Source of the DNA: Styela clava
Taxonomy: Eukaryota > Chordata > Ascidiacea > Stolidobranchia > Styelidae
NCBI RefSeq assembly: GCF_964204865.1
Contig: NC_135262.1
Coordinates: 8,990,001-9,054,000, forward strand
Length of the DNA stretch: 64,000 nt
Reading direction: 5' to 3'
Positions 41,951 to 63,346 of this stretch are shown piece by piece (within the stretch, counting starts at the first letter, position 1; each line of letters starts with the position of its first letter). Both the position numbers and the translations under genes were made by a program. The notes under the pieces were generated by a model, which was given only the letters and a program-made list of their open reading frames with translations, searched no databases and had not been told where the DNA came from.

Positions 41951-43082
41951 GAGTTTTTAATTTAGTTCAATCTGGTACGTGCTAGTAATTCCAATATCTT
42001 TGCGTTACAAAGAATATACCTGAGTCAAATTTAGTACTATGCCCATAACATTACAATAACCGACAACTAGGTTGTGCAAGTTAATCACTCGAAGTCATAG
42101 TCAGAGCCATATCAATAAGTTGGCTCGAGTCACACCGAATCTTTGATAAATGATAATTCAAATCCAACTTGAGTGAAGACAATGAAAAACTTGGTCACCA
42201 CTGGAACAAAATGTTCGTTTTCCAAATATTGACTGGATTGGAAGCAAGCTCGACTTCATATTAATATAATCTTCTTCGATAGGAAAAATTCACTCCCCTC
42301 TGTCCGTCGGTTCTCTTTTAATTCAGCATCATGGCCATTAACAGTTTATAGAGAAATATAATCTATGTTTAATGTTACCATTGATGACCTAACAAGGTAC
42401 TTGTTAAGGTATCAATGATGCCACCATGGAACCGCCACACGGTGCGCAATTTTAATTTCGATTGTGTCATCACAAAAACCTAATAGGAAAAAATAATCTT
42501 CTGAAGCTCCTATGCAACCCACGCATTCTTATCTCTGGCCTAGACTACCCATACAAGACGGGAAATGCATGTATCCAACATGTATCTTATATCCCCAACA
42601 GGTCACTAGGTTGGTTTTAGTTTTCTGGTCAAAAATGACATTTGTAATTTTGTTTCTTGAAAATTATGGTGAAGAAGCTGGCTTTTTCAAAGTGGGCATT
42701 CAATTAGTGAACACATTAGCTTTGAGCAAAGCAACTTTGCTAAAACGCGTCATTTAAGTTCCATTTGCTTGTGCAATATCGCGATACTCTAGCCTCGAGT
42801 TGGCCAATCCATGAAGTGAAAATAACACGAACTGACCATTTCTTTGTTTTTGGCCTTGGTCCTGTACTGTAAAATGAAAACGTTTATTTTTTACATTCTC
42901 TTTATATTCACGTTTTACACCAGAACACACATTGGTATTTTACAAAGATGGTTCTTTCTACCATATTCCAGCTCGTACCCCATCAATAATAAACCTATTT
43001 TACTATATGGAACTCTGAAATTGATTTTTCATATTCTCTGCCTATAATAATATAAGTCAACAACATTTTGGTAGAGTAAGTC

Positions 43083-43433
43083 ATGTCACTGATACAAAAT
43101 GTGTTCAGTGCGGTCGGCGAAGCAGTTGGAGAACTCAGTGGAAAGAATAGAAAGATAAGTGAATTGGAGACTGAAAATGATCGAAAGCAAAATGAGATAA
43201 ATAATTTGAAGAGAAATCTGGCACGAAAACAAAGTGAGATACAGAATTTGGAAATAAACTTGGGACAAAAACAAAGTGAGATTGGAAGTCTGCAAATTGC
43301 ATTGGATAATGCGATGGAGAAAAACAAACTACAGCAAAAAGGCTTGGAAAAAACCTATAAACCCAACGGCTTTGTCAAAGCATGTTGTTGTTGCTGCCTC
43401 AAAAAATCGAGGTTTGCTGTAGTTCCACGTTGA
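43083..43433 (+). CDS. CYS-1: coiled-coil protein with poly-cysteine motif
   Basis: Single-exon frame of 116 residues; I do not know the family. An amphipathic Gly/Ala/Val start (MSLIQNVFSAVGEAVGEL) is followed by a charged coiled coil at about residues 22-88. This contains three 14-residue repeats of the form KQsEIxNLxxxLxx. Then comes TYKPNGFVKACCCCCLKK with cysteines 101-105 and a short tail SRFAVVPR. There is no signal peptide. Cysteines next to hydrophobic and basic residues are typical S-acylation sites, so membrane anchoring of a coiled coil is my inference. Its inverted-duplicate partner is CYS-5. AATAAA at 43479. Conservation of the frame between five copies supports coding. Confidence 0.82.
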   Translation: MSLIQNVFSAVGEAVGELSGKNRKISELETENDRKQNEINNLKRNLARKQSEIQNLEINLGQKQSEIGSLQIALDNAMEKNKLQQKGLEKTYKPNGFVKACCCCCLKKSRFAVVPR

Positions 43434-43478
43434 TACTGAACTAAGTCAAGGGGTAATTTATCACTATACAGGCAATTT

Positions 43479-43484
43479 AATAAA
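43479..43484 (+). terminator. Poly(A) signal of CYS-1
   Basis: AATAAA 46 bases after the stop. The matching position after CYS-5 reads AATTAA. Confidence 0.55.
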
Positions 43485-43913
43485 TAGAGTTTACCTTATT
43501 TTTATCCCAATATTGTATTAATTACTCAGATTTGTAATTAAAAACCGAATGTCTCGGTTTATATATTTGTTAATTATTTGCTTCGCAAACATGTTTCATT
43601 TTAATATCGTTACAATTGTCATCATACATTACATTTAATAAATTGAAAAACAATTTTGTTACGTTGACTGTATGCACTTATCACCTTTAATTCAATAAAT
43701 GTGATTTTACCATTTCATAATTATATATATACAGTTATATTTCTTGATTTTGTTAAATTACGAATAAATACTATGTTTGTAACACAATGTCTGAAATTCT
43801 GTCCTGAAGAAACAGTGCTGATGTCGTGTTTAATTGAGTTTTATGATGTTCACAAGAATTTAATTTTATTTTGATTCTTGAAAGTTTTCACGCTTTGAAA
43901 TGAAGTCTGACGT

Positions 43914-44473
43914 CAATGCAAAGGTCACTTTATCAATATATCTAGGTAATTTGATAAAGCACCCTATTGTGCGACTTATCATCAATGGACTAGGAGAAGT
44001 TATGTCAGGATTGAATTGCTAAACACGTTTAAAGTTTCCAAATTTTTTTCATCAGTATTCGTATAGTACAAAATCCTTTAATCATATTCTATTTCATATA
44101 GGCGTAATACGAATATATTTATTATGAGCATTAACAAAAACAAATGAAGATAACGTACAATAGTCTTACACATTCTCATTAATTCGATAAAAAAATCTAT
44201 CTCAGATTGTAAATGGTCTTTTTCAAATTATTTACTACTAGTCTCTGTTTTATTAAGAGTTTGCTGCAATCAAACGAATATATTTTTGTCAAAAAACATA
44301 TGACTTGAAAACAAAATTATATAACACATCACGTTGAATTTTCTGATCATGGAACAAGTTTAAAATATTAAGGTTTTATAAACTCGATTTTGTAGTATTT
44401 GTATAAATATATAAAAACACATTATTATAGGTTTCTGCATTATTGTACACAAGACTAATGTAAGACACGCTAA
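43914..44473. other. Gap between CYS-1 and CYS-2
   Basis: AT-rich sequence after the inverted-duplication arm; nothing recognised. Confidence 0.4.
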
Positions 44474-44956
44474 TTATTCTTGGCTTGGAGAATCCGCGGC
44501 TCCGCAACATTTGCATGGACACATCTTACCAAAACATCCCATTTTACAATTGTTTGAAGGGCACTTACAACAGCCTGTGTTGCAACAGTTATCAGGCAGT
44601 TTACAACAACTGCAACAATCATTTTTGGGGCAAAATTCACAGCAACAACATTGTTTCCTATCAGTTTCTCCTGTTTCTTCATCATTCTCAGCATTGCCTT
44701 CTTCACCATTCTTTAAACTTTGCTTTTCATGGTCAATCTCGTCGATCTTAACTCTTTGTACAAAACAGCAGCAAGTTTTTTTTATGAATCCGCGGATTTT
44801 CATCGATTTTCGTAAAGTAGATTGCAGTTGTTCGATTTCTTCTATTTGTCTTTCATATTTTTCTTTCAAGTCACTTAGTTCTTTCGCTGCTCCCGACATT
44901 TGCTCCACCATGCCGGCAGCTAGAAATCCAGCTGCGTCAATAACCAAATCAGCCAT
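44474..44956 (-). CDS. CYS-2: coiled-coil protein with cysteine-rich tail
   Basis: Single-exon minus-strand frame, 160 residues. It starts MADLVIDAAGFLAAGMVEQM like its relatives, then a coiled coil (about 25-52) and the family motif in the form SMKIRGFIKKTCCCFVQR with cysteines 62-64. Unlike the others it has a long extension: an acidic linker (83-97) and then 20 cysteines between residues 103 and 151 in CC, CxC and CxxC spacings, ending ADSPSQE. The tail resembles metal-binding cysteine clusters in composition only; a metallothionein-like role is a guess. Antisense open frames over the same bases are shadows. Confidence 0.8.
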   Translation of the reverse strand: MADLVIDAAGFLAAGMVEQMSGAAKELSDLKEKYERQIEEIEQLQSTLRKSMKIRGFIKKTCCCFVQRVKIDEIDHEKQSLKNGEEGNAENDEETGETDRKQCCCCEFCPKNDCCSCCKLPDNCCNTGCCKCPSNNCKMGCFGKMCPCKCCGAADSPSQE

Positions 44957-46337
44957 TATTTAAATTATATTTAAACTAAAGTAATAAATTCTCTAATTCA
45001 CTAATGGAACAAATTGCAACTGATTTTTTGAATAACTAGAAGTCATTTTCAACTTTTTTTGTTTGTGTGTTCTATGGGATCAGAAACCCAAACGAACGCA
45101 TCAAATAAGATGCACACTAAAACGTCTTTGTTGTGATAAAAATATTTAGTCAAAAAGTACTCCATCAACAACAAACATATTTTCGAACAAAACACTGTTT
45201 TTCATTGTTGAAAGATATTTTATATTATCCTCACTTCCTTATCAATTGGTGAAGCTTATTTACCAATATCCTTCATTTCAAAAAATACTCGTCGTTGAGG
45301 CAATATATGGAAGACAAAGCGACAACAAAGCTAACTGATACATTCTAGTTTTTGCAGAAAACTGCTGCAATTATTTCGGAACATTCAGATGTACTAAACT
45401 GTTTCATATGTTTTTTCTTTTGATATTATCAGAATGATTAAGCAATAATTGTTGTGATTCACAAAGTATAATAAATATGTGAGGCGGAAATAAAGAACGC
45501 TGCGTAATAATATATACTTATACATATATATATACTTAAAATTAGTAATATTAATGATTTTGCATCTCCTGAACCAGATAGGTACTTGATGGACATAGTC
45601 CATTTGGTAAAAATTTGGACTATTTGAAAAAATAAAGTCTTGTCTTGTCGTCTCGATCAATGAATCTAATCGGTGTAAGAATATATTTCGAAACATACAG
45701 TTTTGCTTTTTGAGGATAAATACTGCCATGGTTTTAATTGAATGAAACACGAATTGTGTTATAATTAATTATCTATCCTACAACTGTAAGCTACATTATC
45801 TTTTAATGTATGAACAACAGTAACAAAGCGAATAAAATATGATTAGAATGACGTTATGTATTTACGTTTATACTCATGATGCATGTGAATATGATTATCG
45901 TAATGTTATCATCGCTAGATTGAATATTATTATATATGTGTAATAATTACTTGACAGTTGCAAATATGTTTTGCTGTTATATTCTATGAAGTGAGATCGA
46001 CGCATTTTAGTTTAACGCTGAAGTATGTGCAAATTATAGAATTTTTTTTCATAATCCGAATTAACTCAGATTGATTTAAAATTGAGTTGATAGATGAATT
46101 TACATAATTTAAGATTTGGAGAAATATGTTACACCCAGTTGATTCTAATTACTGCAAAAGATCTGAGTGTAAACGAATCAGCTCATATATTATGATTTGT
46201 TGATATTTTTCTGGCAGATATTATTTGAATTTGAGTTAGCTATTTGTTTGAAAACAATTTCATGAATTGTTTCATTTCAATTCATTTTTTTAAATAATGA
46301 TATTAGCGATAACAGGGTATTATAAATTTTAAACGAT
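44957..46337. other. Gap between divergent CYS-2 and CYS-3
   Basis: About 1.4 kb that should hold both promoters. A minus open frame near 45.4-45.75 kb has no family features. Nothing else recognised. Confidence 0.45.
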
Positions 46338-46682
46338 ATGGCGGGAATGGTATTGGAAGTCGTTGGAGATGTGGCAGCTAGTGCGATGGAGCAATTCAAT
46401 GAAACAAAAATGGAAATTGAGGAATGGAAAAATAAGGCTGAAAAGAAACAAGAATATATTGACGAACTAAGAATGAGAGCGGAAAAATGTTACAATGTTA
46501 ACAAATTCGTTAAGCTATTCTGTTGTTGTTGTTTAAGTAAAGCTGTAATTCCTGAGCCAGAAGAAGAAGAGCAAGACGAGAGTGAAGAAGAAGAAGAAGA
46601 AAAAACTCCGCGAAGAAAATCAAAATCTAAAAGCAGAAAAAAGTCAGACGCTCAATTAAAAAATAAAAGGAAGTCCAAATAA
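46338..46682 (+). CDS. CYS-3: coiled-coil poly-cysteine protein with acidic and basic tail
   Basis: Single-exon frame of 114 residues. MAGMVLEVVGDVAASAMEQF is the short-residue start, a coiled coil spans about 21-50, and CYNVNKFVKLFCCCCLSK carries cysteines 62-65. The tail is bipolar: a Glu-rich block (73-88) followed by a Lys/Ser/Arg block (90-114). The basic tail could bind acidic lipid or nucleic acid, but this is inference. The stop codon TAA is part of an AATAAA (46678-46683), so a very short 3' end is possible. Confidence 0.8.
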   Translation: MAGMVLEVVGDVAASAMEQFNETKMEIEEWKNKAEKKQEYIDELRMRAEKCYNVNKFVKLFCCCCLSKAVIPEPEEEEQDESEEEEEEKTPRRKSKSKSRKKSDAQLKNKRKSK

Positions 46683-46683
46683 A
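46678..46683 (+). terminator. AATAAA overlapping the CYS-3 stop codon
   Basis: The hexamer includes the TAA stop (46680-46682). If used, the 3' untranslated region would be about 15-25 bases. Confidence 0.35.
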
Positions 46684-47603
46684 ATATTGTTTTGTTGTTT
46701 CATTGTGATTCTACATTCCAATGCATTTGTGATATTTACCAAACTCATCCACAAATGATTATTAATCAAGCTTTTGTTCAGAAGTCAAATATTTATAATC
46801 CATTGTTGCTGAAGTATTCAACTGAAAATTCAGTTTTCGATCAGTCATTGCTATTTCAAACTGTAGAATATGTTCAAGCTTTACTTGTCCAAAACTTATT
46901 GAACTTAATATATAATTTACTAGGGACATCATGCCTCCAGATTCCGCTCAAAATATGATTTAGTTTGTACTTTGATAAGGACTACATTCTAACATTTCCT
47001 CATCTGATGAAATTTTTCAATCGTACTATTGAAGTTATTTTATCTTCTGTTTGATATATTTCTATAGGACAATTACGATTTCGTCGATCTTCAAAGTTTT
47101 ATTGATAAAAACTGTATAGTATATGTTAAACTAAATTATTAAAAAAAATAATCATGTGACATTGACAATGAGTATATATGAATCAAACACACTTATTTAT
47201 TGAGATATTATTTATATAACATTTAGAAAAAAAGGGTAATTTACTTGTGTAAATAAACGGAGTAGAGTAATATGAAATATAGCTAAAAAAAAGTTATCAC
47301 CAAGCAAAACGAAACATGCTTTAATAAATTTTGTACGTGATGAACGTACTGTTTTAGTGTCTACAGTTTGCATAACACTTTTAATTCTTATAGAATGTAT
47401 TATTGTCTGTATTGGCGTTTCTTATTACCACGTTTGATTTGATTTAATTTTGGGTTGTACAATGTACATTACAAAATATGACATACAAAAAGGAATGAAT
47501 ATTGTACGTTTCTGGAATACAATCTGATAGCATTCAAATTTGGAGATAGAATATTTACAATTACTATACAAAGTGGGATGGTGAATTAGACTCGTTTGTC
47601 GTT
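46683..47603. other. Gap between convergent CYS-3 and CYS-4
   Basis: No gene or repeat recognised in about 0.9 kb. Confidence 0.4.
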
Positions 47604-47837
47604 TCAGATCCGCGCTTCATTGTAATGAACTTTGGATGTCTTCGGTTTAAATTTTGTTATGCAACAGCAGCAAAACACTTTTATAAAACTGTTGACTTTG
47701 TATGAGTTTTTTAGTGCTTCTTCCAATTCCACTATCCGGCGTTCTTTTTCTCGCAGTAATTCATTTGTTCCGGAGTATTCTTTATAACCAGCCACAGCGC
47801 CAGCTCCAAGCGCTGCTCCAAAGGATGCCGCCGCCAT
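47604..47837 (-). CDS. CYS-4: short coiled-coil poly-cysteine protein
   Basis: Single-exon minus-strand frame. I start at the ATG at 47837, giving 77 residues, because MAAASFGAALGAGAVAGYKE matches the small-residue start of the relatives. An upstream in-frame ATG at 47885 would add 16 Asn/Ile-rich residues unlike any of them. A short coiled coil (about 23-44) is followed by SYKVNSFIKVFCCCCITK with cysteines 56-59 and a basic tail. It is the smallest family member: almost only anchor plus two to three heptads. Confidence 0.75.
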   Translation of the reverse strand: MAAASFGAALGAGAVAGYKEYSGTNELLREKERRIVELEEALKNSYKVNSFIKVFCCCCITKFKPKTSKVHYNEARI

Positions 47838-47901
47838 TATATCAGTTATATTATTGAAAATAGAACTAATATTGTAATTATTCACAGAAAAAATATAAAT
47901 T

Positions 47902-49010
47902 TTTCAATTATCTAGGTAAATTTTATACCGTTACTAGACTATAAATTCGAGTGTTGCTAGTATGCAAAAGTTTATAATTATTATATACATTACGCGATAA
48001 CAAGCATGATAGATTGATCATTAAACTGTGATTTTGTGAGCGAATGCAAGAAGTTGAGTATTATTTTAAAAGGACGTTACCTGAGTAGAAATTATTTCAT
48101 AACACAGTAAATGTATTCTGATCCAGTTAACTAGATTAAAATTATATCAAGAATATAATACCTCATCAGAAATGTTATAGATTAATATTCTCATTCAACT
48201 CTACACAAAGTATCATGCCCTGTGGTCTGATTGCACATATGAGTTGATTGCTAAATTCTAATAAGAATTCACTAAAAATTAACCTTTCTGAAACCTTTCA
48301 TTAGTATACAAATATTCTCGATATTATTACAGCACTTTCACACAATAGCCTAAGTATAATTTTCAATTCTCTAACACGAGTCACAATTTATCCATAAGTA
48401 TGTGCATGAAGATTGCTGGCAGATCATTTCACGTATGAACAAGTAGTTTACGGATTCCTCCACTATTCACTTTGCTCTACAAACAATTAGTAATAATCAA
48501 CTGGTTAGCTATTCCCACTTCTACCTAAACCGGTAATTGGTAGAAAATCCGCATATGATTAAGCTGTCATAATTAAGTTCCTTTCTTTAGCAAAATGCGG
48601 GAATTTAATCCTAAGACTAGTATTTAAGTAGCGTAAAATACATATAAAGATTCCCGGAACAATGATTTTATATTAACTCAGAATTCATAATTTACATATA
48701 AGCTTAGACGACAACAACAGCTCCTTTGATTCAAGTGGTGTTTCATTGTCGTCAATTTGTATATTGTTTGAACAAGATCAAATTTGCCCTGACAAGCCCA
48801 ACCAACACTTTGACTTAGCCAATATTTGTTGAATGTTTGATTCAAAGTCAAAAGTTCATACAGATCTGAATACCGCTTATAGATGGAATTAGCGCATATA
48901 AAAATAAGGAAGAATGTATTTCTTATTTAAAGTGTTTTTACATACATTCACAAAACATGTTAAAAGGCAAATATCAATTTGATAAATAGAACTTAGATTT
49001 CTTGCCAAGT
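47902..49010. repeat. A-unit, copy A1 (tandem ~1.1 kb)
   Basis: From TTTCAATTATCTAGGTAAAT to GATTTCTTGCCAAG. The same sequence restarts at 49011, so the period is about 1.1 kb. Shared words include TTAAAAGGACGTT, CATGCCCTGTGGTCTGATTG and AAACCGGTAATTGGTAGAAA. It has an empty site for the D2 insertion at about 48665. Possibly an upstream part of the lipocalin block. Confidence 0.85.
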
Positions 49011-49825
49011 TTCAATTATCTAGGTAAATTTCATACCGTTAGCAGATCATTAATTCAAGTGTTGCTAGTATGCAAAAGTTTATAATTATTATATATATTA
49101 CGCGATAACAAGCATGATAGATTGAGCATTAAACTTTGATTTGGTGAGCGAATGACAAGCAGTTGAGTGTTATTTTAAAAGGACGTTTTCTGAGTAGAAA
49201 TTATTTCATAACACAGTAAATGTATTCTGATCCGGTTAACTAGATTAAAATTATATCAAGAATATAATAACTCATCAGAAATTTTATAGAATCTCTAATA
49301 AATATTCTCATTCAACTTTACACAAAGTATCATGCCCTGTGGTCTGATTGCACATATGAGTTGATTGCTAAATTCTAATAAGAATAAACTAAAAATTAAC
49401 CTTTCTGAAACCTTTCATTAGTATACAAATATTCTTGATATTATTACAGCACTTTCACACAATAGCCTAAGTATAATTTTCAATTCTCTAACACGAGTCA
49501 CAATTTATCCATAAGCACGTGCGTGAAGATTGCTGGCAGATCATTTCACGTATGAACAAGTAGTTTACGGATTCCTCCACTATTCACTTTGCTCTACAAA
49601 CAATTAGTAATGATCAACTGGTTAACTATTCCCACTTCTACCTAAACCGGTAATTGGTAGAAAATCCGCATATGATTAAGCTGTCATGATTAGGTTCCTT
49701 TCTTTAGCAAAATGCGGGAATTTTATCCTAAGACTAGTATGTAAGTAGCGTAAAATACATATGAAGATTCCCGGATCAATGATTACTTACCGATCTTAAG
49801 ATCGGTAAGTATGTTGATAGGTATT

Positions 49826-49864
<39 letters not shown>

Positions 49865-50406
49865 ATGTTTGTCTGTTTGTCTGTTAGATGAACGCGATAT
49901 CTCACGTGGTTGAATCTGCTCCAAATTTTGCAGGTGCATGCATCTTACTTCGGACCAGAAGCCTATAGATTTTGGGTTAATTATGTCGTATAATTAGCGA
50001 GTTATTAACTAATTACCGATCTAAGATCGATAAGTCTTCGGTCTCCGACCGATATTCTCGTTTTATATTTTCTCAGAATTCATAATTTACATATAAGCTT
50101 AGACGACAACAACAGCTCCTTTGATTCAAGTGGTGTTTCATTGTCGCCAATTTGTTATCATATATTGTTTGAACAAGATCAAATTTGCCCTGACAAGCCC
50201 GACCAACACTTTGACTTAACCAATATTTGTTGATTGTTTGATTCAAAGTCAAAAGTTCATACAGATCTGAATACCGCTTATAGATGGAATTATCATATAT
50301 AAAAATAAGGAAGAATGTATTTATTATTGAAAGTGTTTTTACATACATTCACAAAACATGTTAAAAGGCTAATATCAATTTGATAAATAGAACTTAGATT
50401 TCTTGC
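49011..50406. repeat. A-unit, copy A2, carrying a D insertion
   Basis: Direct copy of A1, about 1.12 kb without the 276-base D2 element at 49785-50060. It runs directly into the lipocalin-1 upstream region (CGTACGTAGCACTTCACC). Confidence 0.85.
49785..50060 (-). mobile_element. D element, copy D2, with empty-site evidence
   Basis: Inserted in A2 at ..CAATGATT^TTATATT. A1 and A3 have the uninterrupted site GATTTTATATT, and two extra T residues at the junction suggest a TT target duplication. The element starts ACTTACCGATCTTAAGATCG (a palindrome), has a TGTC-type simple repeat at about 49826-49882, and ends CGACCGATATTCTCG. Reverse orientation relative to D1. Confidence 0.88.
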
Positions 50407-50952
50407 GTTTCGTACGTAGTCGTACGTAGCACTTCACCTAACATTTTAAGCTGTACAGATACATGAAGAGTGTACCTACTTTGAAACTTGGGCATGTTTG
50501 TCAAGACCAGAAGACTCGGAAATTAGACGAACGATTATAAAATACAAACACAAATCGAGGTATGGGCCACAAACGAAAGCTATATAAAGATGCTAGCAAC
50601 AATGAATTCATATTAAACTGAGTTTCTAATTTACATATAAGCGCATACGATCGTAAAATCCCCTCCCTACGTGCCGAGTGGTGGTTCAAGGTCGTCAGTT
50701 GTCTTTGTAATCATCCAATATTTGAAAATCAAATTTGCCCGTAAGACGAGCCTTCGACTTATCGACCTATTTTGTGTTACCTATACATCTCACCTGGAAT
50801 ATTAAGATGTCCAGATTTTTAAAAAAATGCAAAAGTTATAAATGTAGGCTTCTACGGTTTTGCTAAAAGCTTAGTCTGATCAAGAGGGATATTTGTCAAG
50901 AAACGATTATACACGAAAACTTCCTGGAAATGTTAAACATACGGTCGCACTG

Positions 50953-50958
50953 TATAAG
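50953..50958 (+). promoter_or_regulatory. TATA box candidate of lipocalin-1
   Basis: TATAAG in CTGTATAAGTAGAATTC, 75 bases before the start codon; identical in the lipocalin-2 upstream region. Confidence 0.4.
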
Positions 50959-52066
50959 TAGAATTCATTCTACACAAGGTAGCTGTACTTTAAGTTGCTC
51001 TTGTATTCGTTTAGTTGAATTACTCCAACAAAATGAAGATTTTTGTGTTTATACTTTGTTTCGTATTCCTGGATGGCATGAACATGAGAGTAACATCTCA
51101 TCGCACAGCAAAGAAATGTGTTTTACCAAAGTCTCAGAAGATTAACTGGAACAAGGTTTGTTTATTATTTTATGCTGCGCTCCCGTTTTAGAGTTTGTCA
51201 AGCCGTCCGTCCCGTCCAACCTCGAAAATAACTAGCTAACGATAAACTACAAATAACATAGTAAAGAGAAAGTATATTTGTTTTATTAATAAAAAAAAAC
51301 GTTGAAAACATGCGAATGGGAGGTAAATAATGAAATAAATGAAGGAAAGTTTCAAAAACAAGCCAATTTTGTCGCAACAGCTCTCCACAATCTCTAACCA
51401 ATAAAGAAATATAAATAACCAAATGACGGCGGGCCAGATAAAATCTAACAAATATATTTGTTTTAAAAAGTTGTCTGCGTCCCGTTGTGGGTCGCGACCC
51501 ACCATTTGTGATCCGCTGTATAGGTTTTCTAATCATATTTGTATAATAGAAAACGTTGGGAAGTCAGTTATAAATATATTGCTCACGGTATAAAGTCACA
51601 TCATACCAATCAATGCACAGGTGTCTATCTACACCAGTTGAACCAAACACAAACTTATTTTTACGTTCGTAGTACTTAGTGGGGATGGTAAACGAATTTT
51701 TGAGCAATTGAAGAATCATACCAATTATGAATGCCTATAAAACATGTAAAGCTAGAAAGATAATTTTAAATTTCCTTGACTAATTTGACATGAAAATAAA
51801 CTATGCTACTCATCAATGGCTCTGAGTTGCCGCTGTCTTGATACTACACGTAACTTTTTTGTATTATATATGAAATAATTGATGTTGAGTTTCACAGATT
51901 CGTGGAAATTGGTACGAAGCCTTAAACAGAAAAAGTCCGTTGGAAAAACTATTAAGCTGTGAAGCCTGGAGTCATGTGGTATCAATTAAGAATGGCATCA
52001 AGCTAAATCTCAGAAACGAAGATTGGTGAGTGATGATGTAGTTGAACGACTATTCTTCTGCCTGTC

Positions 52067-52092
52067 AAATAATATATATATATATATATATG
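52067..52092. repeat. (TA)n microsatellite
   Basis: TA-alternating run in lipocalin-1 intron 2, shortly before exon 3. The corresponding run in lipocalin-2 (about 60184-60207) has a slightly different length. Confidence 0.6.
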
Positions 52093-52320
52093 CAAAGTTT
52101 ACTTCATTTTATACAGGAAAACTCACACATATAGCGTTCTTCCGATGTTCATTAGAATTACAAAATCAGGCACAGGAATTTGGAAACCGCCGACAGGTAA
52201 GTTCCCATATTTTTTGTGCTGTTGTATTGAATAACATACAATTTTTTCTTTTTCTTTTGTCAATCGTAGGTTGTGTAATCTCAAATGTAGAATATTTTCA
52301 ATTTCAAACAATTTGTAAAC

Positions 52321-52623
52321 GAGATAGCGATCAGAGACCGCCGACTTATCGATCTAGCGGCGTGTATCCTTCGCTCTGACTCAATAGCGATACCGCGTGT
52401 CTTATCACTAATTATCTAATAACTCGCTAATTAAAGGGCATAATTTATCCAAAATCAATAGGTTCTGGTCCGAGATATGATGATTACACATGCACAAAAT
52501 TCGGAGCAGATTCAGTCGCGAATTCGTGAGGTATCGCGTAACATACGAAAGTGTCCAACAGACAGGCAGACAAACAAACAAATACCTATCAACATACTTA
52601 CCGATCAAGATCGATAAGTAATA
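52321..52623 (+). mobile_element. D element, copy D3
   Basis: GAGATAGCGATCAGAGACCG to CCGATCAAGATCGATAAGTA in lipocalin-1 intron 3. The same insertion, at the same place, is D5 in lipocalin-2, so it predates the gene duplication. Confidence 0.75.
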
Positions 52624-52826
52624 AAAGTTCAATGACACCATAACGAAAGTTAGCATGGGGATTGTCATTAGTGTCACAATATTACAACCATGACCGATGT
52701 GTAAGTACAGTTTAGTACTGAAATTATAGCATAGTTAGTAAGAATATTAAAATACCAAAATATTAGACATTAGAAAAATGAGTGATATAATCTTGCGTTC
52801 TCTCTGCAAAATAGTGTTGTTGTATT

Positions 52827-53124
52827 ATTACTTATCGATTTTATTCGGTAAGTATGTTGATAGGTATTTGTCTGTCTGTATGTCTGTTAGATGCACGCGA
52901 TATCTCACGAAAGCAAGATTGAATCTTTTCCAAATTTTGCATGTTCATTAATCTTATCTCGAACCAGAAGCCTATTGATTTTGGGCAAATTATGTCGTAT
53001 AATTAGCGAGTTATCAAATAATTAGTGATGGGACACAAGGTGTCACTATGGAGTTAGAGCGCTGTTTTGGGGGATCCCCTAACTTTCGATCGATAAGTCT
53101 TCGGTCTCTGACCGATATTCTCAT
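52827..53124 (-). mobile_element. D element, copy D4
   Basis: Reverse-oriented copy in lipocalin-1 intron 3, from ATTACTTATCGATTTTATTC to CTGACCGATATTCTC. It shares GGGGGATCCCCTAACTTTCG with D1. Lipocalin-2 lacks it: there GTGATATAAT is followed almost at once by the end of the intron, so D4 came after the duplication or was lost with surrounding bases. Confidence 0.75.
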
Positions 53125-54546
53125 TTATAGTATTGACATTGATTCAAATTTAAAATACCCAATTACTGAGATCAAATTACTTCTTTTTAGAATACTTTCA
53201 TGTGCCTTAATTAAAAGATGTCACAATATCCTATTATCCGCTGCAGCGTATCATGTCATATAATATGCTATACATTTTCTAAACTTGTCATTGTACTTGT
53301 TCAAAAGGGTTATATGTAGTCAATTCAACATGTATTTTGACGAAAAGCTTACATTTTTTATTGTTTTTATTTTATACGCAGTGAAAAAATGGTTTGCCTC
53401 TTTGAAACAGAGTTCCGCATCACAATATTGGAAAAAAGCTCATCATGGGTAAATGCAAAATACAATTTATATAAAACATAGTATTATATTTGTTAAAGCT
53501 TTAGTTTGGAATGACATTCTGTCTCATAGTTACTGAAGCTAACAGAATATTTAACAATGGAGGTAAAGCAAAATATCTTTGAATAAACTAAAGAAAAATT
53601 GTTTGCCCAAACTTTTAGATTGCAACCTCCAAATCTGCTGAGCTGTTTGAAATGAATAACCATTTCTGAATCTACGATATGCTTTTACAAGTTTGCTTCT
53701 GTATGTTGCTTTCAGCTATGATAAAATGCTTACTTAACCCATTTTCTTATATACTTTTGCAGAATTGAAATCGATGCAAAAAGCAGGATTCGCATTTTCT
53801 ACAGATTACAAAACCTACTTCATCGTCATGTCATGTGGACGGAACGGTAAACTACAAGTCATTATTATACAGTACATTTGATAGTGTTTTATTTTCTAAT
53901 CAGCTAAATTGTTCAAATGTAACTCGTCGACCATTCAAGAAAGTTAATCTTTCATCAACTATAACTTCTGACTGAAATATTATTTTATTTCTAAATCCGA
54001 TAATGGTATATTAAAGTAATGAAACTGTTATAAAATGCCAATACGTTTCACGCTAGATTGTCCCTTAGTTTTTCTACTCAGATCTTCGTTTACCACTTCC
54101 AGAAATATAGCAAGTTTGAAATATCAGGAATTAAGAGCAATGCCTACGTAAATCATTCATGTATCAAGTGCAATAAAATAGTATTTCAACTATTTTTAAC
54201 AGGCGAGAAATACGTATGGGCGCACACGCGACATCCCTATCCCACTGCTGAATCTTTGGTTGCTATCTTCAACAGTTTGGTGAAAATTGGACACGGATGG
54301 AATGACGAGCCATTGTACTTGTCACAATGCGTCAAGATTTCTAACACATAGCCCAACCTCAAATCATTTCTGTAGAAATGATAATAAACACATACATATT
54401 CAGAGAGAAATTTTATAAAGAGGAAAAGGGAACCGCGAATGATAAGAAAAATAGTAATGAAGCTGCCCTAATACAGTTAATGACACACTTGATAGATGTA
54501 AATGACATTGTAATGTAATCTGAAATTTATTATGAAATGTGATTGA

Positions 54547-54552
54547 AATAAA
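54547..54552 (+). terminator. Poly(A) signal of lipocalin-1
   Basis: AATAAA about 195 bases after the ancestral stop, conserved in lipocalin-2. Confidence 0.5.
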
Positions 54553-54696
54553 TGATGTGAAGGGTTTTCACTCAGAACTATGTCATGTTCTTCAATAACA
54601 GTAACAAAGCCACAGCAAAAATTCAGCAAATCAACCCATATTTACACTTCTCATTCAATAAACCTGTAGGCTGTAAAGTCAATCATGAACTTTTAA

Positions 54697-55730
54697 ACCA
54701 GCGTTTCCCAACCTTTTTCGATCGCGGACTATTTTCTCTCCGGCGAAAACCTTTGTGGACTCAATGTGCGTTTATTGCAACCGTACTCTGTGTAAAAAGC
54801 AATAAAACCAAACACAACAAAACTTTAACGAATTTCAAAATCGAAAATTCGCCGCAATTACGCGTTCGTTAAAAGAGTCGAATTTTCTTGAGTATAAAAT
54901 GGCCTTTTCTGTCGCATAATATTCAATCCAATGACGACGACGAAAATTTTAAATGTCCTTCTATAAAAATATTCTTATAATTCTGCACAGACATATTTCA
55001 GATAATTTATTCATATTTCATTGCAGTTCTTCGACTTTATCTTAAGAAAGTCAAAACATTCTGTCCGCGTCGTGTTGTAAATATTAAGTGTGTTCATGGT
55101 AACTCGCGGTTGCTTTGATTTACGACAAGATGAAAGCATTACTGCTTTAAAATGGCAAGGCAATCTGGAACTATGATGATGTGAGAATATATTGCCCGAT
55201 TATATTTAGTTTGGATAAATATTTTTTTGCGATCTTGCGAATTTGTTGTCGCCGTTAGAAAAATCCTACCATCTGCTATAAATTTCCAGAAAGTACAACT
55301 TGATTTAGCACTTAGTAAAAATATATTTGAAGTATATCAGTAAATTAAAAAAACATATTCATCGCCTTGCTTTATTATTAATTTAATTGTGATCAATATA
55401 ATCTGCGGGCGTGTTGACAAAATAAAAGCAATACTACTCAGGAAATATCATGACAATGCGTGGACACAAAAATGCGTGAAAGTGCCTGATTATATTTTGA
55501 TTCGTATTTTTGTGAATTTGACAAATCTGAGCTGTTCGTACCAATGTGGAGGCTAAAAAAGCGTTTTTAATCGCGGACCATCATAAAACAAAACTTGAGG
55601 TGTTCTCCGTTTTATTTTTAGTATTGCCGCTTTTCAATTTAAAAAATTTGGGTCGCCACCATTGACACTTAGCATCAGAAAAAAAATTATTCCTCGTTGT
55701 TCGAACTCGCGAAACACCATTTAGGTATAT
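54697..55730. mobile_element. hAT-like insertion or remnant after lipocalin-1
   Basis: Homology between the two lipocalin blocks breaks at TTAAACCA. Copy 1 continues with CAGCGTTTCCCAACCTTTTT, a typical hAT-type end, then about 1 kb of unique sequence with GGGTCGCCACC-like and CTCGCGAAACACC-like words that could be the other end. No target duplication identified, so the right boundary is uncertain. No transposase frame seen. Confidence 0.4.
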
Positions 55731-55759
55731 ATCGAAGCGTGTGCAGGCTAGTGTTTTCG

Positions 55760-57865
55760 TCAGACTTCATTTCAAAGCGTGGAAACTTTCAAGAAATAAA
55801 ATGAAATTAAATTTTTGTGAACATCATAATAAACTCAATTAAACACGAAATCAGCACTGTTTCTTCAGGACAGAATTTCAGATATTGTGTTACAAACATA
55901 GTATTTATTCGTAATTTAACAAAATCAAGAAATATAACTGTATATATATAATTATGAAATGGTAAAATCACATTTAAAGAATTAAAGGTAATAAGTGCAT
56001 ACAGTCAACGTAACAAAAGTGTTTTTCAATTTATGAAATGTAATGTATGATGACAATTGTAACGATATTGGAATAAAACATGTTTGCCAAGCAAATAATT
56101 AACTGATATATAAACCGAGACATTCGGTTTTTAATTAATCTGAGTAATTAATACAATAATGGGATAAAAATACGATAAACTCTATTAATTAAATTGCCTG
56201 TATAGTGATAAATGACCTTTCGACTTAGTTCAGTATCAACGTGGAACTACAGCAGCGCTCGATTTTTTGAGACAGCAACAACAACATGCTTTGACAAAGC
56301 CGTTGGCTTTATAGGTTTTTTCCAAGCCCTTTTTCATTTTCTTGATTTCCTTTTGCTGTAGTTTGTTTTCAGCCATTGATTTATCCAATGCAATTTGCAA
56401 ATTCTCAATCTCACTTTGTTTTTGTTCCAAGTTTATTTCCAAATTATTAATCTCTTTTTGCTTTGTATCATTCTCGGTCTTCAATTCAATTATATTTCTG
56501 TTCTTTCCACTAAGTTCTCCAACTGCTTCGCCGACTGCACCGAACACAGATTGTGTCAGTGACATGATTTACTCAACCAAAATGTTGTTGACTTATATTA
56601 ATATAGGCAGAGAATATGAAAAATCAATTTCAGAGTTAGATATAGTAAAATAGGTTTATTATTACAATTTTTCTTGAAAACGCAATAGAGAGACAATAGT
56701 ATTCCAGTCGGAAATTGGATATATCTTCCCTTACACTTCTGAAGAGTGTCCAATAGGTTTCTACTGATCTAAAAGGATTCTTGTTTCTGTTCCATCTATA
56801 AAGAAGACCCAGCGATCTTCAGGAAAAACAAACGAGAAACAACACAAACGAGTAGCAACGGCATGCCTGTATCCTAGCAATATTGGTCTCAGAGAGAGAA
56901 GATTTGTAAAAGCCTTTTGTTAGGCAAATCATTTATTTGTTGAATAGATGGTAGGCCTACAGATGTAACGCCGCGACCGAAAGCTATTATTCAAGAAATA
57001 AATGACTTCTCTAACAAAAGGTTTTCTCAAATCTGAACCATCGTTGTAAAATATCAATGTGTGTTCTGTTGTAAAACGTGAATATAAAGAGAATATAAAA
57101 ATTGAACTTTTCCCTTTTGCAGTACAGGACCAAGGCAAAAAACAAAGAAATGGTCGGTTCGTGTGATTTTCCACTTCATGGATTGGCGAACTCGAGTCTA
57201 GAGTATTGCGATATTGCACAAGCAAATGGAACTCAAATGACGCGTTTTAGCGCAAGTTGCGCATGCTTTGCTCAAAGCTAATGTGTTCACTAATTGAATG
57301 TTCCACTTTGAAAAACCCAGCTTTAAATCTTCTTCCCCATAATTTTCAAAAAACAAAATTACAAATGTCATTTTGACCAAAAAACCAATACCAACCTAGT
57401 GACCTGTTGGGGATGTTGGATACATGCATTTCCCGTCTTGCATGAGTAGGTTAGGCCAGAGATAAGAATGCGAATAAGAATGCAAAGGAGCTTCAGAAGT
57501 TTATTTTCTCCTATTAGGTTTTTGTGATGACACAATCAAAATAAAAAATTGCGCACCGTGTGGCGGTTTCATAAAGGCATTAAACATTGATTACATTTCT
57601 CTCTAAACTGTTGATGGCCATGATGCTGAATTAAACGAGAACCGTTTGGCCAGAGGGGGAGAATTTTTTCGTATCGAGGAAATTATATTAATATGATGTC
57701 GAGCTTGCTTCCAATAAAGTCAATATTTAGAACAATTTGTTCCAGTGGTGATGAGACGCAAGTAATTCATTGACTTTACTCGAGTTGGATTTGAGTTATC
57801 ATTTATCAAAGACTCGGTGTGAATCGAGCAAACCTAATGATATGGCTCTGACTCTGATTTCGAGT
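55760..57865 (-). repeat. Right arm of the inverted segmental duplication
   Basis: Reverse-complement partner of 42087-43913, carrying CYS-5. Besides point changes it has about 280 extra bases near 56.67-57.0 kb. Confidence 0.85.
56236..56565 (-). CDS. CYS-5: coiled-coil poly-cysteine protein, duplicate of CYS-1
   Basis: Single-exon minus-strand frame of 109 residues. MSLTQSVFGAVGEAVGEL starts like CYS-1. The coiled coil (about 22-81) holds two rather than three 14-residue KQxEIxNLxxxL repeats, but it has seven extra residues (EIKKMKK) before GLEKTYKANGFVKACCCCCL; cysteines are 94-98. The tail SSAAVVPR matches CYS-1. The frame stays open despite the repeat-number change and many substitutions, which argues for selection on the protein. 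The AATAAA of CYS-1 is AATTAA here. Confidence 0.82.
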   Translation of the reverse strand: MSLTQSVFGAVGEAVGELSGKNRNIIELKTENDTKQKEINNLEINLEQKQSEIENLQIALDKSMAENKLQQKEIKKMKKGLEKTYKANGFVKACCCCCLKKSSAAVVPR

Positions 57866-57895
57866 GAGACATAACTCAGTGATTAAGTATTATTA

Positions 57896-58514
57896 TTTTA
57901 AAAGGACGTTATCTGAGTAGAAATTATTTCATAACACAGTAAATGTATTCTGATCCAGTTAACTAGATTAAAATTATATTCACTTTGCTCTACAAACAGT
58001 AATCAACTGGTTAACTATTCCCACTTCTACCTAAACCGGTAATTGGTAGAAAATCCGCATATGATTAAGCTGTCATAATTAAGTTCCTTTCTTTAGCAAA
58101 ATGCGGGAATTTTATCCTAAGACTAGTATGTAAGTAGCGTAAAATACATATAAAGATTCCCGGAACAATGATTTTATATTTTCTCAGAATTCATAATTTA
58201 CATATAAGCTTAGACGACAACAACAGCTCCTTTGATTCAAGTGGTGTTTCATTGTCGTCAATTTGTATATTGTTTGAACAAGATCAAATTAGCCCTGACA
58301 AGCCCGACCAACACTTTGACTTAACCAATATTTGTTGAATGTTTGATTCAAAGTCAAAAGTTCATACAGATCTGAATACCGCTCATAGATGGAATTAGCA
58401 CATATAAAAATAAGGAAGAATGTATTTCTTATTTAAAGTGTTTTTACATACATTCACAGAACATGTTAAAAGGCAAATATCAATTTGATAAATAGAACTT
58501 AGATTTCTTGCCAA
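57896..58514. repeat. A-unit, copy A3 (internally deleted)
   Basis: Starts TTAAAAGGACGTTATCTGAG and ends GATTTCTTGCCAAG next to CGTACGTAGCACTTCACC. Compared with A1 and A2 it starts part-way and lacks about 330 bases after AGATTAAAATTATAT. It has an empty site for the D2 insertion at about 58172. Confidence 0.8.
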
Positions 58515-59048
58515 GTCGTACGTAGCACTTCACCTAACATTTTAAGCTGTACAGATACATGAAGAGTGTACCTACTTTGTAACTTGGGGATGTTTGTCAA
58601 GACTAGAAGACTCGGAAATTAGACGAACGATTATAAAATATAAACACAAATCGAGGTATGGGCCACGAACGAAAGCTATATAAAGAGGCTAGCAACAATG
58701 AATTCATATTAAGCTGAGTTTCTAATTTACATATAAGCGCATACGATCGTAAAATCCCCTCCCCATGTGTCGAGTGGTGGTTCAAGGTCGTCAGTTGTCT
58801 TTGTAATCATTCAATACTTGGAAATGAAATTTGCCCGTAAGACGAGCCTTCGACTTATTGACCTATTTTGTGTTACCTATACACCTCACCTAGAATATTA
58901 AGATGTCCAGATTTGAAAAAAAATGCAAAAGTTATAAATGTAGGCTTCTAAGGTTTTGCTAAAAGCTTAGTCTGATCACGAACGATATTTGTCAAGAAAC
59001 GATTATACACGAAAACTTCCGGGAAATGTTAAACATACGGTCGCACTG

Positions 59049-59054
59049 TATAAG
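59049..59054 (+). promoter_or_regulatory. TATA box candidate of lipocalin-2
   Basis: TATAAG, same position and context as in lipocalin-1, 75 bases before the start codon. Confidence 0.4.
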
Positions 59055-59128
59055 TAGAATTCATTCTACACAAGGTAGCTGTACTTTAAGTTGCTCTTGT
59101 ATTCGTTTAGTTGAATTACTCCAACAAA

Positions 59129-62100
59129 ATGAAGATTTTTGTGTTTATACTTTGTTTCGTATTCCTGGATGGCATGAACATGAGAGTAACATCTCATCGC
59201 ACAGCAAAGAAATGTTTTTTACCAAAGTCTCAGAAGATTAACTGGAACAAGGTTTGTTTATTATTCTATGATGCGCTTGCCGTTTTAGAGTTTGTCAAGC
59301 CGTCCGTCCCGTCCCACCTCAAAAATAACTAGCCAACGATAAACTACAAATAACATAGTAAAGAGAAAGTATATTTGTTTTATTAAAAAAAAAATCGTTG
59401 AAAACACGTGAATGGGAGGTAAATAATGAAATAAATGAAAAGTTTCAAAAACCAGCCAATTTTGTCGCAACAGCTCTCCACAATCTCTAAACAATAAAGA
59501 AATGTAAATATCCAAAATACGGCGGGGAAGATAAAATCTAACAAAAATATTTGTTTTAAGAAGCTCCACCCTCTCCTAAATAGTTGTCTACGTCCCTTTG
59601 TGGGTCGCAACCCAACATTTGTGATCCGCTGTATAATTTTTTTAATAATATTTGTATAATAGAAAACGTTGGGAAGTCAGTTATGAATATATTGCTCACG
59701 GTAAAAAGTCACATCATACCAATCAATGCACAGGTGTCTATCTACACCAATTGAACCAAACACAAACTTATTTTTACATTCGTAGTACTTAGTGGGAATG
59801 GTAAACGAATTTTTGAGCAATTGAAGAATCATACCAATTATGAATGCCTATAAAACATGTGAAGCTAGAAAGATAATTTTAAATTTCCTTGACTAATTTG
59901 ACATGAAAATAAACTATGCTACTCATCAATGGCTCTGAGTTGCCGCTGTCTTGATGCCACACGTAATTTTTTTGTATTATATATGAAATTATTGATGTTG
60001 AGTTTACAGATTCGTGGAAATTGGTACGAAGCCTTAAACAGAAAAAGTCCGTTGGAAAAACTATTAAGCTGTGAAGCCTGGAGTCATGTGGTACCTACTA
60101 AGTATGGCATCAAGCTAAATCTCAGAAACGAAGATTGGTGAGTGATTATGTAGTTGAACGACCTTTCTACTGCTTGTCAAATAATATATATATATATATA
60201 TATATGCAAAGTTTACTTCATTTTATACAGGAAAACTCACACATTTAGCGTTCTTCCGATGTTCATTAGAATTACAAAATCAGGCACAGGAATTTGGAAA
60301 CCGCCGACAGGTAAGTTCCCATATTTTTTTGTGCTGTTGTATTGAATAACATACAATTTTTTCTTTTTATATCGTCAATCGTAAGTTGTGTAATCACAAA
60401 TGTAGAATTTTTTCAATTTCAAGCAATTTGTAAACGAGATAGCGATCAGATACCGCCGACTTGTCGATCTAGCGGCGTGTATCGTTCGCTCTGACTCAAT
60501 AGAGACACCGCGTGTCCCATCACTAATTATTCAATAACTCGCAAATTATTAGGACTGGGCATTTTCGAAACACTGGTGTTTCAAAATCGAAACGGAATTT
60601 TGCCTTCGAAACGCAACACACGTTTTTCATAAACAGTAAATTATGATACCATTATTACCCATCGAATTTAATGTATAATCCCATCTATTTTCCACAATTA
60701 CATCCACGAAGGGATAGCACTGAATGCTAATTCCAGAGGATAAAACGATAGTGATAATTCCACGAATGTTTCTGCTCAATGACAAAGTAGCGGCCAAATG
60801 GCACCAGGATAATACAAATTACGTCATTGTTAGAGATGGGGCTCACAAGCAGATGGGGCCTCTCAACGTATCAATGCGGCCCTACCCTCATCTAATGTAA
60901 TGGGCGGGGTCATTTTCTTCTTTATCCGATGCCACAAATCCTTGTGATCCAGTGTGGTTATACCAGGGAGAGCCATAACCGAATACCTGACTATTTCAAA
61001 TACATTCTGGAAAAAGATATTTTTGAATCTCCTGAATTCCGAATACATTCTAAAGTCCAGGAACACAGGAATTGGGCTTTTATTGATTGAAATTATTTTT
61101 TTGCTCTAATGAAAATGGACTTGATAAACTTTACAGTATTTATGAATTGTGGAGTATCTTGGCAAGCACAGAAAAAAGAGCAACTAGATGAAATGTTTAA
61201 ATTATACAGTAAAATCAACATTAACTCGGATTTGTGATACGGCTAATTTTCGTTATGACTCTGATATTCACGATATTCGAATAAATTCGGATATTAAATT
61301 CGAATTGGACATCCCTGAATGATACATTGACTAATTTCAGGTTAAATTTGCTATGATGTCATAATATCCGTTTCGACATATCAGTGTTTCGAAACGCCCA
61401 GCCCTACTAATTGTACGACATAATTCATCCAAAATCAATAGGCTTCAGGTCCGATATATCATGAATACACATGCGAAATTTGGAGCATATTCAATCGCGA
61501 ATTCGTGATATCGCGTAACATACAAAAGAGTCCAACAGACAGACAGACAAACAAACAAATACCTATCAACATACTTACCGATCAAGATCGATAAGTAATA
61601 AAAGTTTAATGACACCATAATAAAGTTAGCATGGGAATTGTCAATACTGTCACAAAATTACAATCATGACCGATGTGTACGAGGTGTGGCTAAAAAGAAA
61701 CGAGACTGACGTCACAGATTGCGCAACACGATTAACCATTGGTAATCAACACTTTTACAGTGTGGTGTAATATGTGTTCTTTGTTCAACAGCTTTTTTGA
61801 CACAATATCGCAATTATTTTTGCTCTTTAGGAGCCATAGGTGAATGTGATTAATTGCTTGTTGAAAAAAAAATTGCCGTGCGAGATCTGATTGAGTTTTT
61901 TGGCGATAGGGGGTTCAATTGCAGAATGACGATTGAGCAATGAATTAACATTAAATTTTGTGTCAAACTTGGAAAAACGGCGACTGCGACTTTGAAGAAA
62001 TTGTGTGATGTTTATGGAGATTCTTCCATGTCCAGAACAAGAGTTTTTGTACAGTTTAGTAGTGAAATTTTAGTATAGTTAGTAAGAATATTAAAATACC

Positions 62101-63152
62101 AAAATATTAGACATAAGAATAATAAGTGATATAATTTAATTGTTTTTATTTTATACGCAGTGAAAAAATGGTTTGCCTCTTTGAAACAGAGTTCAGCAAA
62201 TCACAATATTGGAAAAAAGCTCATCATGGGTAAATGCAAAATACAATTTATATAAAACATAATATTATATTTGTTGAAGCTTTAGTTTGGAATGATATGC
62301 TGAAGCATAGTTACTGAAGCTAACAGAATAATTAACAATGGTGGCAAAGCAAAATATCTTTGAATAAACTAAAGAAACAATTTTTTGCTTAAACTTTTAG
62401 ATTGCAACGTCCAAATCTGCTGAGCTGTTTGAAATGAATTACCATTTCTGAATCTACGATATGCTTTTACAATTTTTGCTTCTGTATGTTGCTTTCAGCT
62501 ATGATAAAATGCTTACTTAACCCATTGTCTTTTATACTTTTGCAGAAATGAAATCGATGCAAAAAGCAGGATTCGCATTTTCTACAGATTACAAAACCTA
62601 CTTCATCGTCATGTCATGTGGACGGAACGGTAAACTACAATTCATTATTATACAGTACATTTGATAGTGTTTTATTTTCTAATCGGCTAAATTGTTCAAA
62701 TGTAACTCGTCGTCCATTCAAGAAAGTTAATCTCTCATCAACTATACCTTCTGACTGAAATATTATTTTATTTCTAAATCCGATAATGGTATATCAAAGT
62801 AATGAAACTGTTACATAATGCCAATACGTTTCACGTTAGATTGTCCCTTAGTGACGTCTGCTCAGATCTTCGTTTACCACTTCCAAAAATATAGCAAGTT
62901 TGAAATACCATGGCCCTTCTAATACCAGGAATTAAGAGCAACGCCTACGTAAATCATTGATGTATCAAGTGCAATAAAATAGTATTTCAACTATTTTTAA
63001 CAGGCGAGAAATACGTATGGGCGCATACGCGACATCCTTATCCCACTGCTAAATCTTTGGTTGCTATCTTCAACAGTTTGGTGAAAATTGGACACGGATG
63101 GAATGATGAGCCATTGTACATGTCACAATGCGCCAAGATTTCTAACATATAG
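59129..63152 (+). CDS. Lipocalin-like secreted protein (lipocalin-2), intact
   Basis: Exons 59129-59251, 60010-60137, 60231-60310, 62161-62229, 62546-62629 and 63004-63152 join in frame to 210 residues. A signal peptide (MKIFVFILCFVFL) is followed by a basic linker and KINWNKIRGNWYEALNRK, which holds the G-x-W-Y signature opening a lipocalin barrel. Later strands include GFAFSTDYKTYFIVMSCGRN, and the last part (SLVAIFNSLVKIGHGW) suits the C-terminal helix. Cysteines at SCEAW, MSCGR and SQCAK could form disulfides. The frame of exon 4 is set by phase; another frame looks lipocalin-like but does not join exon 5. Intron 3 (1.85 kb) holds D5, a hAT element and a mariner fragment. Lipocalins carry small hydrophobic ligands; the ligand here is unknown. 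Confidence 0.87.
60436..61602 (+). mobile_element. D element, copy D5, split by a hAT element
   Basis: Left part 60436-60549 and right part 61407-61602 together match D3. The break lies in AACTCGC^AAATTAT, where the hAT element sits. Confidence 0.78.
60550..61406. mobile_element. 857 bp non-autonomous hAT-type transposon
   Basis: Ends TAGGACTGGGC and GCCCAGCCCTA are terminal inverted repeats that continue imperfectly through TTTCGAAACACTG. The flanks CAAATTAT (60542-60549) and CTAATTGT (61407-61414) are 8-base target duplications with one change each from CTAATTAT, the sequence expected from other D copies. The interior has no recognisable transposase; one 67-residue minus frame shows no hAT motif. 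Confidence 0.88.
61680..62049 (+). mobile_element. Truncated mariner-type transposon (5' part)
   Basis: Begins at TA|CGAGGTGTGGCTAAAAAG. At 61926 it holds the start of a mariner transposase: MTIEQ, then a TGA, then INIKFCVKLGKTATATLKK and YGDSSMSRTRVF, the helix-turn-helix region typical of mariner elements. It stops abruptly at 62049 before another TA. The corresponding site in lipocalin-1 has no element. Broken by the stop codon and truncation, so inactive. Confidence 0.85.
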
Positions 63153-63340
63153 CCTAACCTCAATTCATTTCTGCAGAAATGATATGAACACGTACATATT
63201 CAGAGAGAAATTTTATAAAGAGGAATGATAAGAAAAATAGTAATGAAGCTAATATTGTGCCCCAATACAGTTAATGACACACTTGATAGATGTAAAAGAC
63301 ATTGTAATGTAATCTGAAATTTATTATCAAATGTGATTGA

Positions 63341-63346
63341 AATAAA
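63341..63346 (+). terminator. Poly(A) signal of lipocalin-2
   Basis: AATAAA 188 bases after the stop, in a segment conserved with lipocalin-1. Confidence 0.5.

Follow-up and report, generated by a model that had tools for sequence, protein, structure and literature searches.

Which kind of gene is represented by five short open reading frames (ORFs) of Styela clava that share a run of cysteines, how did these genes come to lie side by side, and what might their proteins do? The frames, named CYS-1 to CYS-5, lie in the 64,000-nucleotide stretch of DNA that was analysed (the window, C17:8990001-9054000). An earlier note had described them as single-exon coiled-coil proteins with a common poly-cysteine anchor, and an ORF check recovered all five where they had been placed (Table 1). 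They belong to a small local gene family on one chromosome. We propose that the products form coiled-coil oligomers inside the cell, which an S-acylated cysteine-lysine cluster would hold on a membrane as a scaffold or adaptor.

Family members and the shared anchor

The earlier count of five holds for the window and falls short for the chromosome. Searches of the whole genome (376.6 Mb, 379 contigs) bring the family to seven open frames and two decayed copies of CYS-2, all on C17. Five of the seven proteins, CYS-2 to CYS-6, served as genome-wide protein queries, and only the best candidates were scored, so these member counts are lower bounds. All seven loci were recovered by CYS-6 and likewise by CYS-4 (E ≤ 1), and every member except CYS-1 by CYS-3. 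The CYS-2 query found CYS-3, -4, -6 and -7 together with its own decayed copies and missed CYS-1 and CYS-5; the matches of CYS-5 at E ≤ 0.001 were CYS-5 itself, CYS-1, CYS-6 and CYS-7. Only two matches fell outside C17, on C3 (E 0.497) and on C14 (E 0.205, with stops), and neither is convincing.

Apart from the anchor, the paralogues are 23–34% identical to CYS-5. The anchor itself, claimed earlier for the five window members, is borne out by alignment: [YM]-[KN]-x-[NR]-x-F-[VIL]-K-x-x-C(3-5) follows the charged helix in all five, and in an alignment of seven proteins it is present in 7/7. F, K and C-C-C are among the columns that do not vary across CYS-1 to CYS-5. At the DNA level, a strict pattern for F-[VI]-K-x-x-C4 occurs only six times in the genome. 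Five of these occurrences are CYS-1, -3, -4, -5 and -6, and the sixth, on contig C1, contains an in-frame TGA by inspection. A looser pattern (F, a codon with T in the middle, K-x-x-C3) occurs 40 times, with eight occurrences within 0.45 Mb here, one for each of the seven members and one for a decayed copy of CYS-2 (the match at C17:9475538). The remaining 32 do not exceed background, as judged by 67 matches to a reversed-pattern control. Measured against these counts, the anchor is more than a chance resemblance. One motif-like stretch at C17:9423913-9423869, with stops nearby, was taken as chance. A plain DNA microsatellite is an unlikely source of the cysteine runs because adjacent cysteines are encoded by mixed TGT and TGC codons in six of the seven genes; in CYS-3 all are TGT.

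The Gly/Ala/Val start described earlier is found in six members and is missing from CYS-6. Where present, this N-terminal segment is 17–26 residues long, with a mean hydrophobicity of 0.07–0.54 in the segment of highest moment, and a GxxxG motif lies close to the start in CYS-1, -4, -5 and -7 (4/7), with five such sites in CYS-7. Heptad periodicity exceeds that of shuffled sequences in five of the seven coils (p 0.0005–0.0065, with coil limits set by hand). An AlphaFold2 model of CYS-1, built from a five-sequence alignment, predicts a single helix over residues 2-91 with a mean predicted local distance difference test score (pLDDT) of 78.9; block values are 86–98 over residues 21-80 and 66–74 in the helical N-terminal segment. 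Prediction of CYS-2 alone was uninformative (mean pLDDT 51.8). Coil lengths vary among the paralogues, as do the tails, which are absent, acidic/basic or cysteine-rich. The cysteine-rich tail of CYS-2 was confirmed at 20 cysteines in 59 residues, of 23 in the protein; the six other members carry a single contiguous run of four or five cysteines beside basic residues.

The family, not recognised in the earlier note, has no clear counterpart in the database searches either: no match shown rises above a curated cut-off in Pfam (7/7 proteins) or NCBIfam (the five scanned, CYS-1 to CYS-5, all below cut-off), and none in PDB is convincing. In Pfam, CYS-1, -5 and -7 matched generic coiled-coil families without reaching the curated cut-offs (among the best 25 of 36 families for CYS-1 and the best 25 of 33 for CYS-7), the start of CYS-7 matched C19orf12 weakly (E = 0.028, below the family cut-off), and CYS-2, -3, -4 and -6 gave nothing better than E ≥ 0.09. 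A PDB profile search with five members returned 12 sequences at E ≤ 1, the best (0.062) being the coil of cGMP kinase. For the CYS-2 tail, neither Pfam (E ≤ 5) nor PDB (E ≤ 1) gave a match. Among viral contigs, 364 pattern stretches yielded no relative. Other genome contigs yielded 182 stretches and one 17-residue match (E 4e-6 among the candidates), in a Sodalis genome, which was judged to be chance poly-Cys. No obvious description of the family was found in the literature by title, which does not prove that it is unpublished.

Table 1. Coordinates of the CYS genes and associated features (window positions unless prefixed C17)
Feature	Position	Strand	Remarks
CYS-1 ORF	43083..43433	+	116 aa; Gly/Ala/Val start, ~72-residue coil, anchor YKPNGFVKACCCCCLKK
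CYS-2 ORF	44474..44956	-	160 aa; anchor CCCF, then cysteine-rich tail
CYS-3 ORF	46338..46682	+	114 aa; acidic, then basic tail after anchor
CYS-4 ORF	47604..47837	-	77 aa from first ATG at 47837; glycine-rich start; shortest coil in the window
CYS-5 ORF	56236..56565	-	109 aa; close paralogue of CYS-1
CYS-6 ORF	C17:9064298-9064537	+	10 kb outside the window; extra in-frame ATG upstream
CYS-7 ORF	C17:9428140-9428490	-	open frame
Decayed CYS-2 copies	C17:9426727-9427214 and 9475460-9475821		protein search with CYS-2
CYS-1 anchor	43371..43397	+	F-V-K-A-C-C-C-C-C; pattern search
CYS-2 anchor	44765..44788	-	F-I-K-K-T-C-C-C; pattern search
CYS-3 anchor	46506..46532	+	F-V-K-L-F-C-C-C-C; pattern search
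CYS-4 anchor	47661..47687	-	F-I-K-V-F-C-C-C-C; pattern search
CYS-5 anchor	56272..56298	-	F-V-K-A-C-C-C-C-C; pattern search
CYS-2 tail	44477..44653	-	20 cysteines in 59 residues
Tandem unit in CYS-1 coil	43182..43282	+	42-bp unit (14 residues, two heptads), 2.4 copies; 42-bp indel relative to CYS-5
Inverted duplication, arm 1	42085..43912	+	carries CYS-1 and flanks; 82-88% identity
Inverted duplication, arm 2	55758..57867	-	carries CYS-5; 310 + 31 bp absent from arm 1
Putative proximal promoter/5' untranslated region of CYS-1	42985..43082	+	95% identical upstream of CYS-5, recognisable upstream of CYS-7
Matching putative upstream block of CYS-5	56566..56663	-	sequence comparison

Duplication history and constraint on the frames

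Local expansion and retroposition had both been offered as origins of the family. The former agrees with what we observe: seven loci on one chromosome, related by segmental and inverted duplication. CYS-1 and CYS-5 lie in an inverted duplication that extends some 1 kb 5' and 0.5 kb 3' of the genes, in two blocks (42985-43912 versus 55758-56663, 88% identity; 42085-42954 versus 57035-57867, 82%). In the CYS-5 arm, 341 bp between the blocks, some 0.1 kb 5' of the ORF, are unmatched. CYS-1 and CYS-2 are convergent, and this pair recurs in inverted orientation near 9.427 Mb as CYS-7 and a decayed CYS-2, collinear over four blocks at 72–82% identity. Because the copies share their flanks and the convergent arrangement recurs, we attribute the spread of the family to segmental and inverted duplication, and retroposition is not supported; no spliced parent was found genome-wide with the five queries. 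Copies were also lost. Both decayed CYS-2 copies carry frameshifts and stops at 75–82% DNA identity, leaving two of three CYS-2 copies broken. The fate of the duplicated pair is unequal, with all three CYS-1-type copies open and two CYS-2 copies decayed.

The genes are apparently without introns, as judged from the open frames. The possibility that they are exons of a larger gene was rejected, since every frame has an ATG and a stop of its own and the searches revealed no larger parent; there may nevertheless be additional 5' exons. Carriage by a transposon was likewise rejected, the coding-region searches having returned only family copies and the two weak matches. Parts of the CYS-1 upstream flank do, however, contain dispersed repeats. 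One of them (42428-42494) is a short element of about 40–80 bp with at least 31 further matches in the genome.

The upstream sequences are compatible with a short unspliced leader, and we infer that the genes are transcribed. CYS-7 has TATATAAA at -40 (40 bp before the ATG), and imperfect versions stand at the aligned place in CYS-1 and CYS-5 by inspection; TATA[AT]A was not found in the 150 bp scanned upstream of CYS-1, -2 and -5. CYS-5 and CYS-7 share sequence about 110–180 bp upstream that is missing in CYS-1, and over 172 upstream sites their distance is 0.29 versus 0.39 and 0.71.

Sequence divergence indicates that the frames are under selection. The neutrality check suggested in the earlier note, CYS-1 against CYS-5, gives a ratio of nonsynonymous to synonymous divergence (omega, dN/dS) of 0.40, below the neutral level, with a bootstrap fraction of dN ≥ dS of 0.022 and with the caveat that the 3' flank diverges less than the coding region. 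Because of this excess of coding divergence, the pair on its own is no evidence of coding conservation. Gene conversion or recombination, uneven rates or diversification of the coil are possible reasons for the contrast. The comparisons with CYS-7 gave omega 0.49 for CYS-1 (bootstrap fraction 0.015) and 0.56 for CYS-5 (0.051). Here the 3' flanks differ by 0.33–0.34 and dN is 0.16–0.19, a contrast as expected for constrained frames. A codon model of the three genes (102 shared codons) estimates omega at 0.457 (likelihood-ratio statistic 6.62, p = 0.010), and the partition comprising the N-terminus and coil gives p = 0.024. Neutral simulations started from CYS-5, with substitutions only and with assumed branch lengths, left all three frames without a stop in 1/4000 runs (flank-based) and 0/4000 (dS-based). 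Just two indels separate the coding regions of CYS-1 and CYS-5, of 42 and 21 bp, each a whole number of heptads; of the other indels along the two arms, 11/15 are not multiples of three.

Proposed membrane tethering and rival explanations

By analogy with known proteins, the cluster most plausibly serves to tether the protein to a membrane by way of S-acylated cysteines, and we assign a probability of about 60% to the reading as a whole. In the proposed mechanism, a short Gly/Ala/Val N-terminal helix (not in CYS-6) would precede a heptad-type helix of about 25–72 residues that dimerises or oligomerises. The C-terminal anchor, F-[VIL]-K-x-x-C(3-5) with flanking basic residues, would make first contact with an anionic membrane through Phe/Val/Ile and Lys, and its cysteines would most likely be S-acylated by membrane palmitoyltransferases. 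Several acyl chains may then hold the oligomer at the cytosolic face of the membrane as a peripheral scaffold or adaptor, while coil length and the variable tails of the paralogues could set the choice of partner. From oligomerisation and acylation onward, these steps are drawn from analogy with remorins, paralemmins and the alveolin IMC1c.

Clustered palmitoylated cysteines are present in SNAP-25 and in cysteine-string protein, and paralemmins contain a coiled coil. Neither a SNARE nor a DnaJ domain is among the Pfam families shown for CYS. Remorins, which are called plant-specific (PMC8951588), have a documented acylated cysteine cluster next to a coil: an oligomerising helical coil adjoins a short anchor at the C-terminus, which contains Phe and cysteines prone to acylation (PMC11621693). 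The same order of coil and acylatable anchor is seen in CYS, with the layout in 7/7, a predicted helix in CYS-1 and heptads in 5/7. The two differ in that no C-terminal remorin domain appears in the Pfam family lists obtained for the seven proteins and for four anchor segments, that no classical heptad consensus is reported for remorins, and that their anchors hold up to four cysteines, in contrast to the contiguous C5 of CYS (PMC11621693). Paralemmins have an acylated C-terminal cysteine cluster and a proposed adaptor role, as is predicted for CYS; they end in a prenylated CaaX box, which 0/7 CYS proteins do when the protein ends are read, and no paralemmin was reported from Ciona (PMC3405040). 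Alveolin IMC1c is a cytoskeletal protein with a palmitoylated C-terminal cysteine motif (PMC5388192), set apart by description as a Plasmodium protein with alveolin repeat domains. The CYS proteins may work like remorins or paralemmin, without homology. The earlier suggestion of an undescribed system goes too far: the gene family looks undescribed, but its architecture is of a known type.

Several observations weigh against this membrane-scaffold proposal. Cysteine runs can also bind metals. The heptad score is not significant in the two shortest coils (CYS-4, p = 0.057; CYS-6, p = 0.091), the anchor is of low confidence and poorly defined in the CYS-1 model, and a Foldseek search of PDB returned no match. 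Omega of about 0.46 implies moderate constraint only, and for the anchor and tail by themselves neutrality is not rejected (28 codons, p = 0.128). Indels in the 3' flanks are often multiples of three (non-multiples 2/3, 4/6 and 4/9 by pair), and between CYS-1 and CYS-5 dS (0.230; dN 0.091) is about four times the divergence of the 3' flank (0.058).

It is possible, though in our judgement unlikely, that the CYS proteins serve in metal or redox chemistry: the cysteine runs would bind zinc, copper or, in ascidians, possibly vanadium, the coil would only oligomerise, and the neighbouring glutathione S-transferase (GST) genes would fit a detoxification locus. The case is strongest for CYS-2 with its many cysteines; ascidian vanabins carry 16–18 (PMC9486056), and the GST array extends to about 29.7 kb of the window (six GST_N tblastn matches including the query; Pfam GST_N and GST_C). 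However, a cysteine-rich stretch like that of vanabins or metallothioneins occurs in the CYS-2 tail alone, which matched nothing in Pfam or PDB at the thresholds given above and accompanies a coil and anchor, and the other six members have one contiguous run near basic residues. Moreover, it is CYS-2 whose copies have decayed, and no GST match was found with two query exons in the 90 kb around CYS-7.

Still more doubtful is a two-ended device, in which the Gly/Ala/Val start inserts into or packs against a membrane, the protein is held at its opposite end by acylation and the coil is a spacer whose length sets a distance. The GxxxG sites, above all the five in CYS-7, the change of coil length in heptad steps and the helical N-terminal segment of the CYS-1 model are in its favour, but that segment is short and of low mean hydrophobicity, CYS-6 lacks it, and the C19orf12 match of the CYS-7 start is under the cut-off. 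A more specific version, which we also judge improbable, makes the proteins lineage-specific spacers between a glycine-zipper helix on one membrane and acylated poly-Cys on another, the gap being set by a coil grown through in-register 7- or 14-residue duplications; if true, the paralogues would be a graded series of gap widths. Least probable of all is that the frames have no function, or are genes on which constraint was recently relaxed, and were copied along with the surrounding DNA in the local duplications: they are short, apparently single-exon and without homologues found, with moderate omega, two decayed copies and CYS-1/CYS-5 coding regions more diverged than the 3' flank, but omega lies below 1 at p = 0.010, neutral frames stay open in 0–1 of 4000 simulations, the coding indels are heptad-sized, and the anchor is common to otherwise dissimilar paralogues.

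If the membrane-scaffold proposal is true, a gene family found on a single chromosome has reached the coil-plus-acyl-anchor design of plant remorins, and duplication, growth of the coil in whole heptads and the death of copies together offer a small, testable example of how a lineage-restricted membrane scaffold may originate. If the genes are silent, the family is a curiosity.

Genomic surroundings

The GST array occupies window positions 1-30000 (C17:8989922-9019728), with six N-domain and three C-domain matches by tblastn, queries included; N and C domains match in separate stretches. Adjoining the CYS genes is a recent duplication (48059-54700 and 57891-63494, 90–99% identity over several blocks), of which a more diverged third copy (76–81%) lies at C17:9058273-9059724; no Pfam family was found in three scanned frames of it. 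Window positions 52317-52433 hold an element of about 117 bp resembling a short interspersed nuclear element, with at least 33 further matches at 88–94% on many contigs (40 of 2353 candidates scored). On contig C9, a glycoside hydrolase 6 match (E 1.5e-6) lies in a short open frame among other short frames, as in a split gene; animal genes of this family are known from tunicates.

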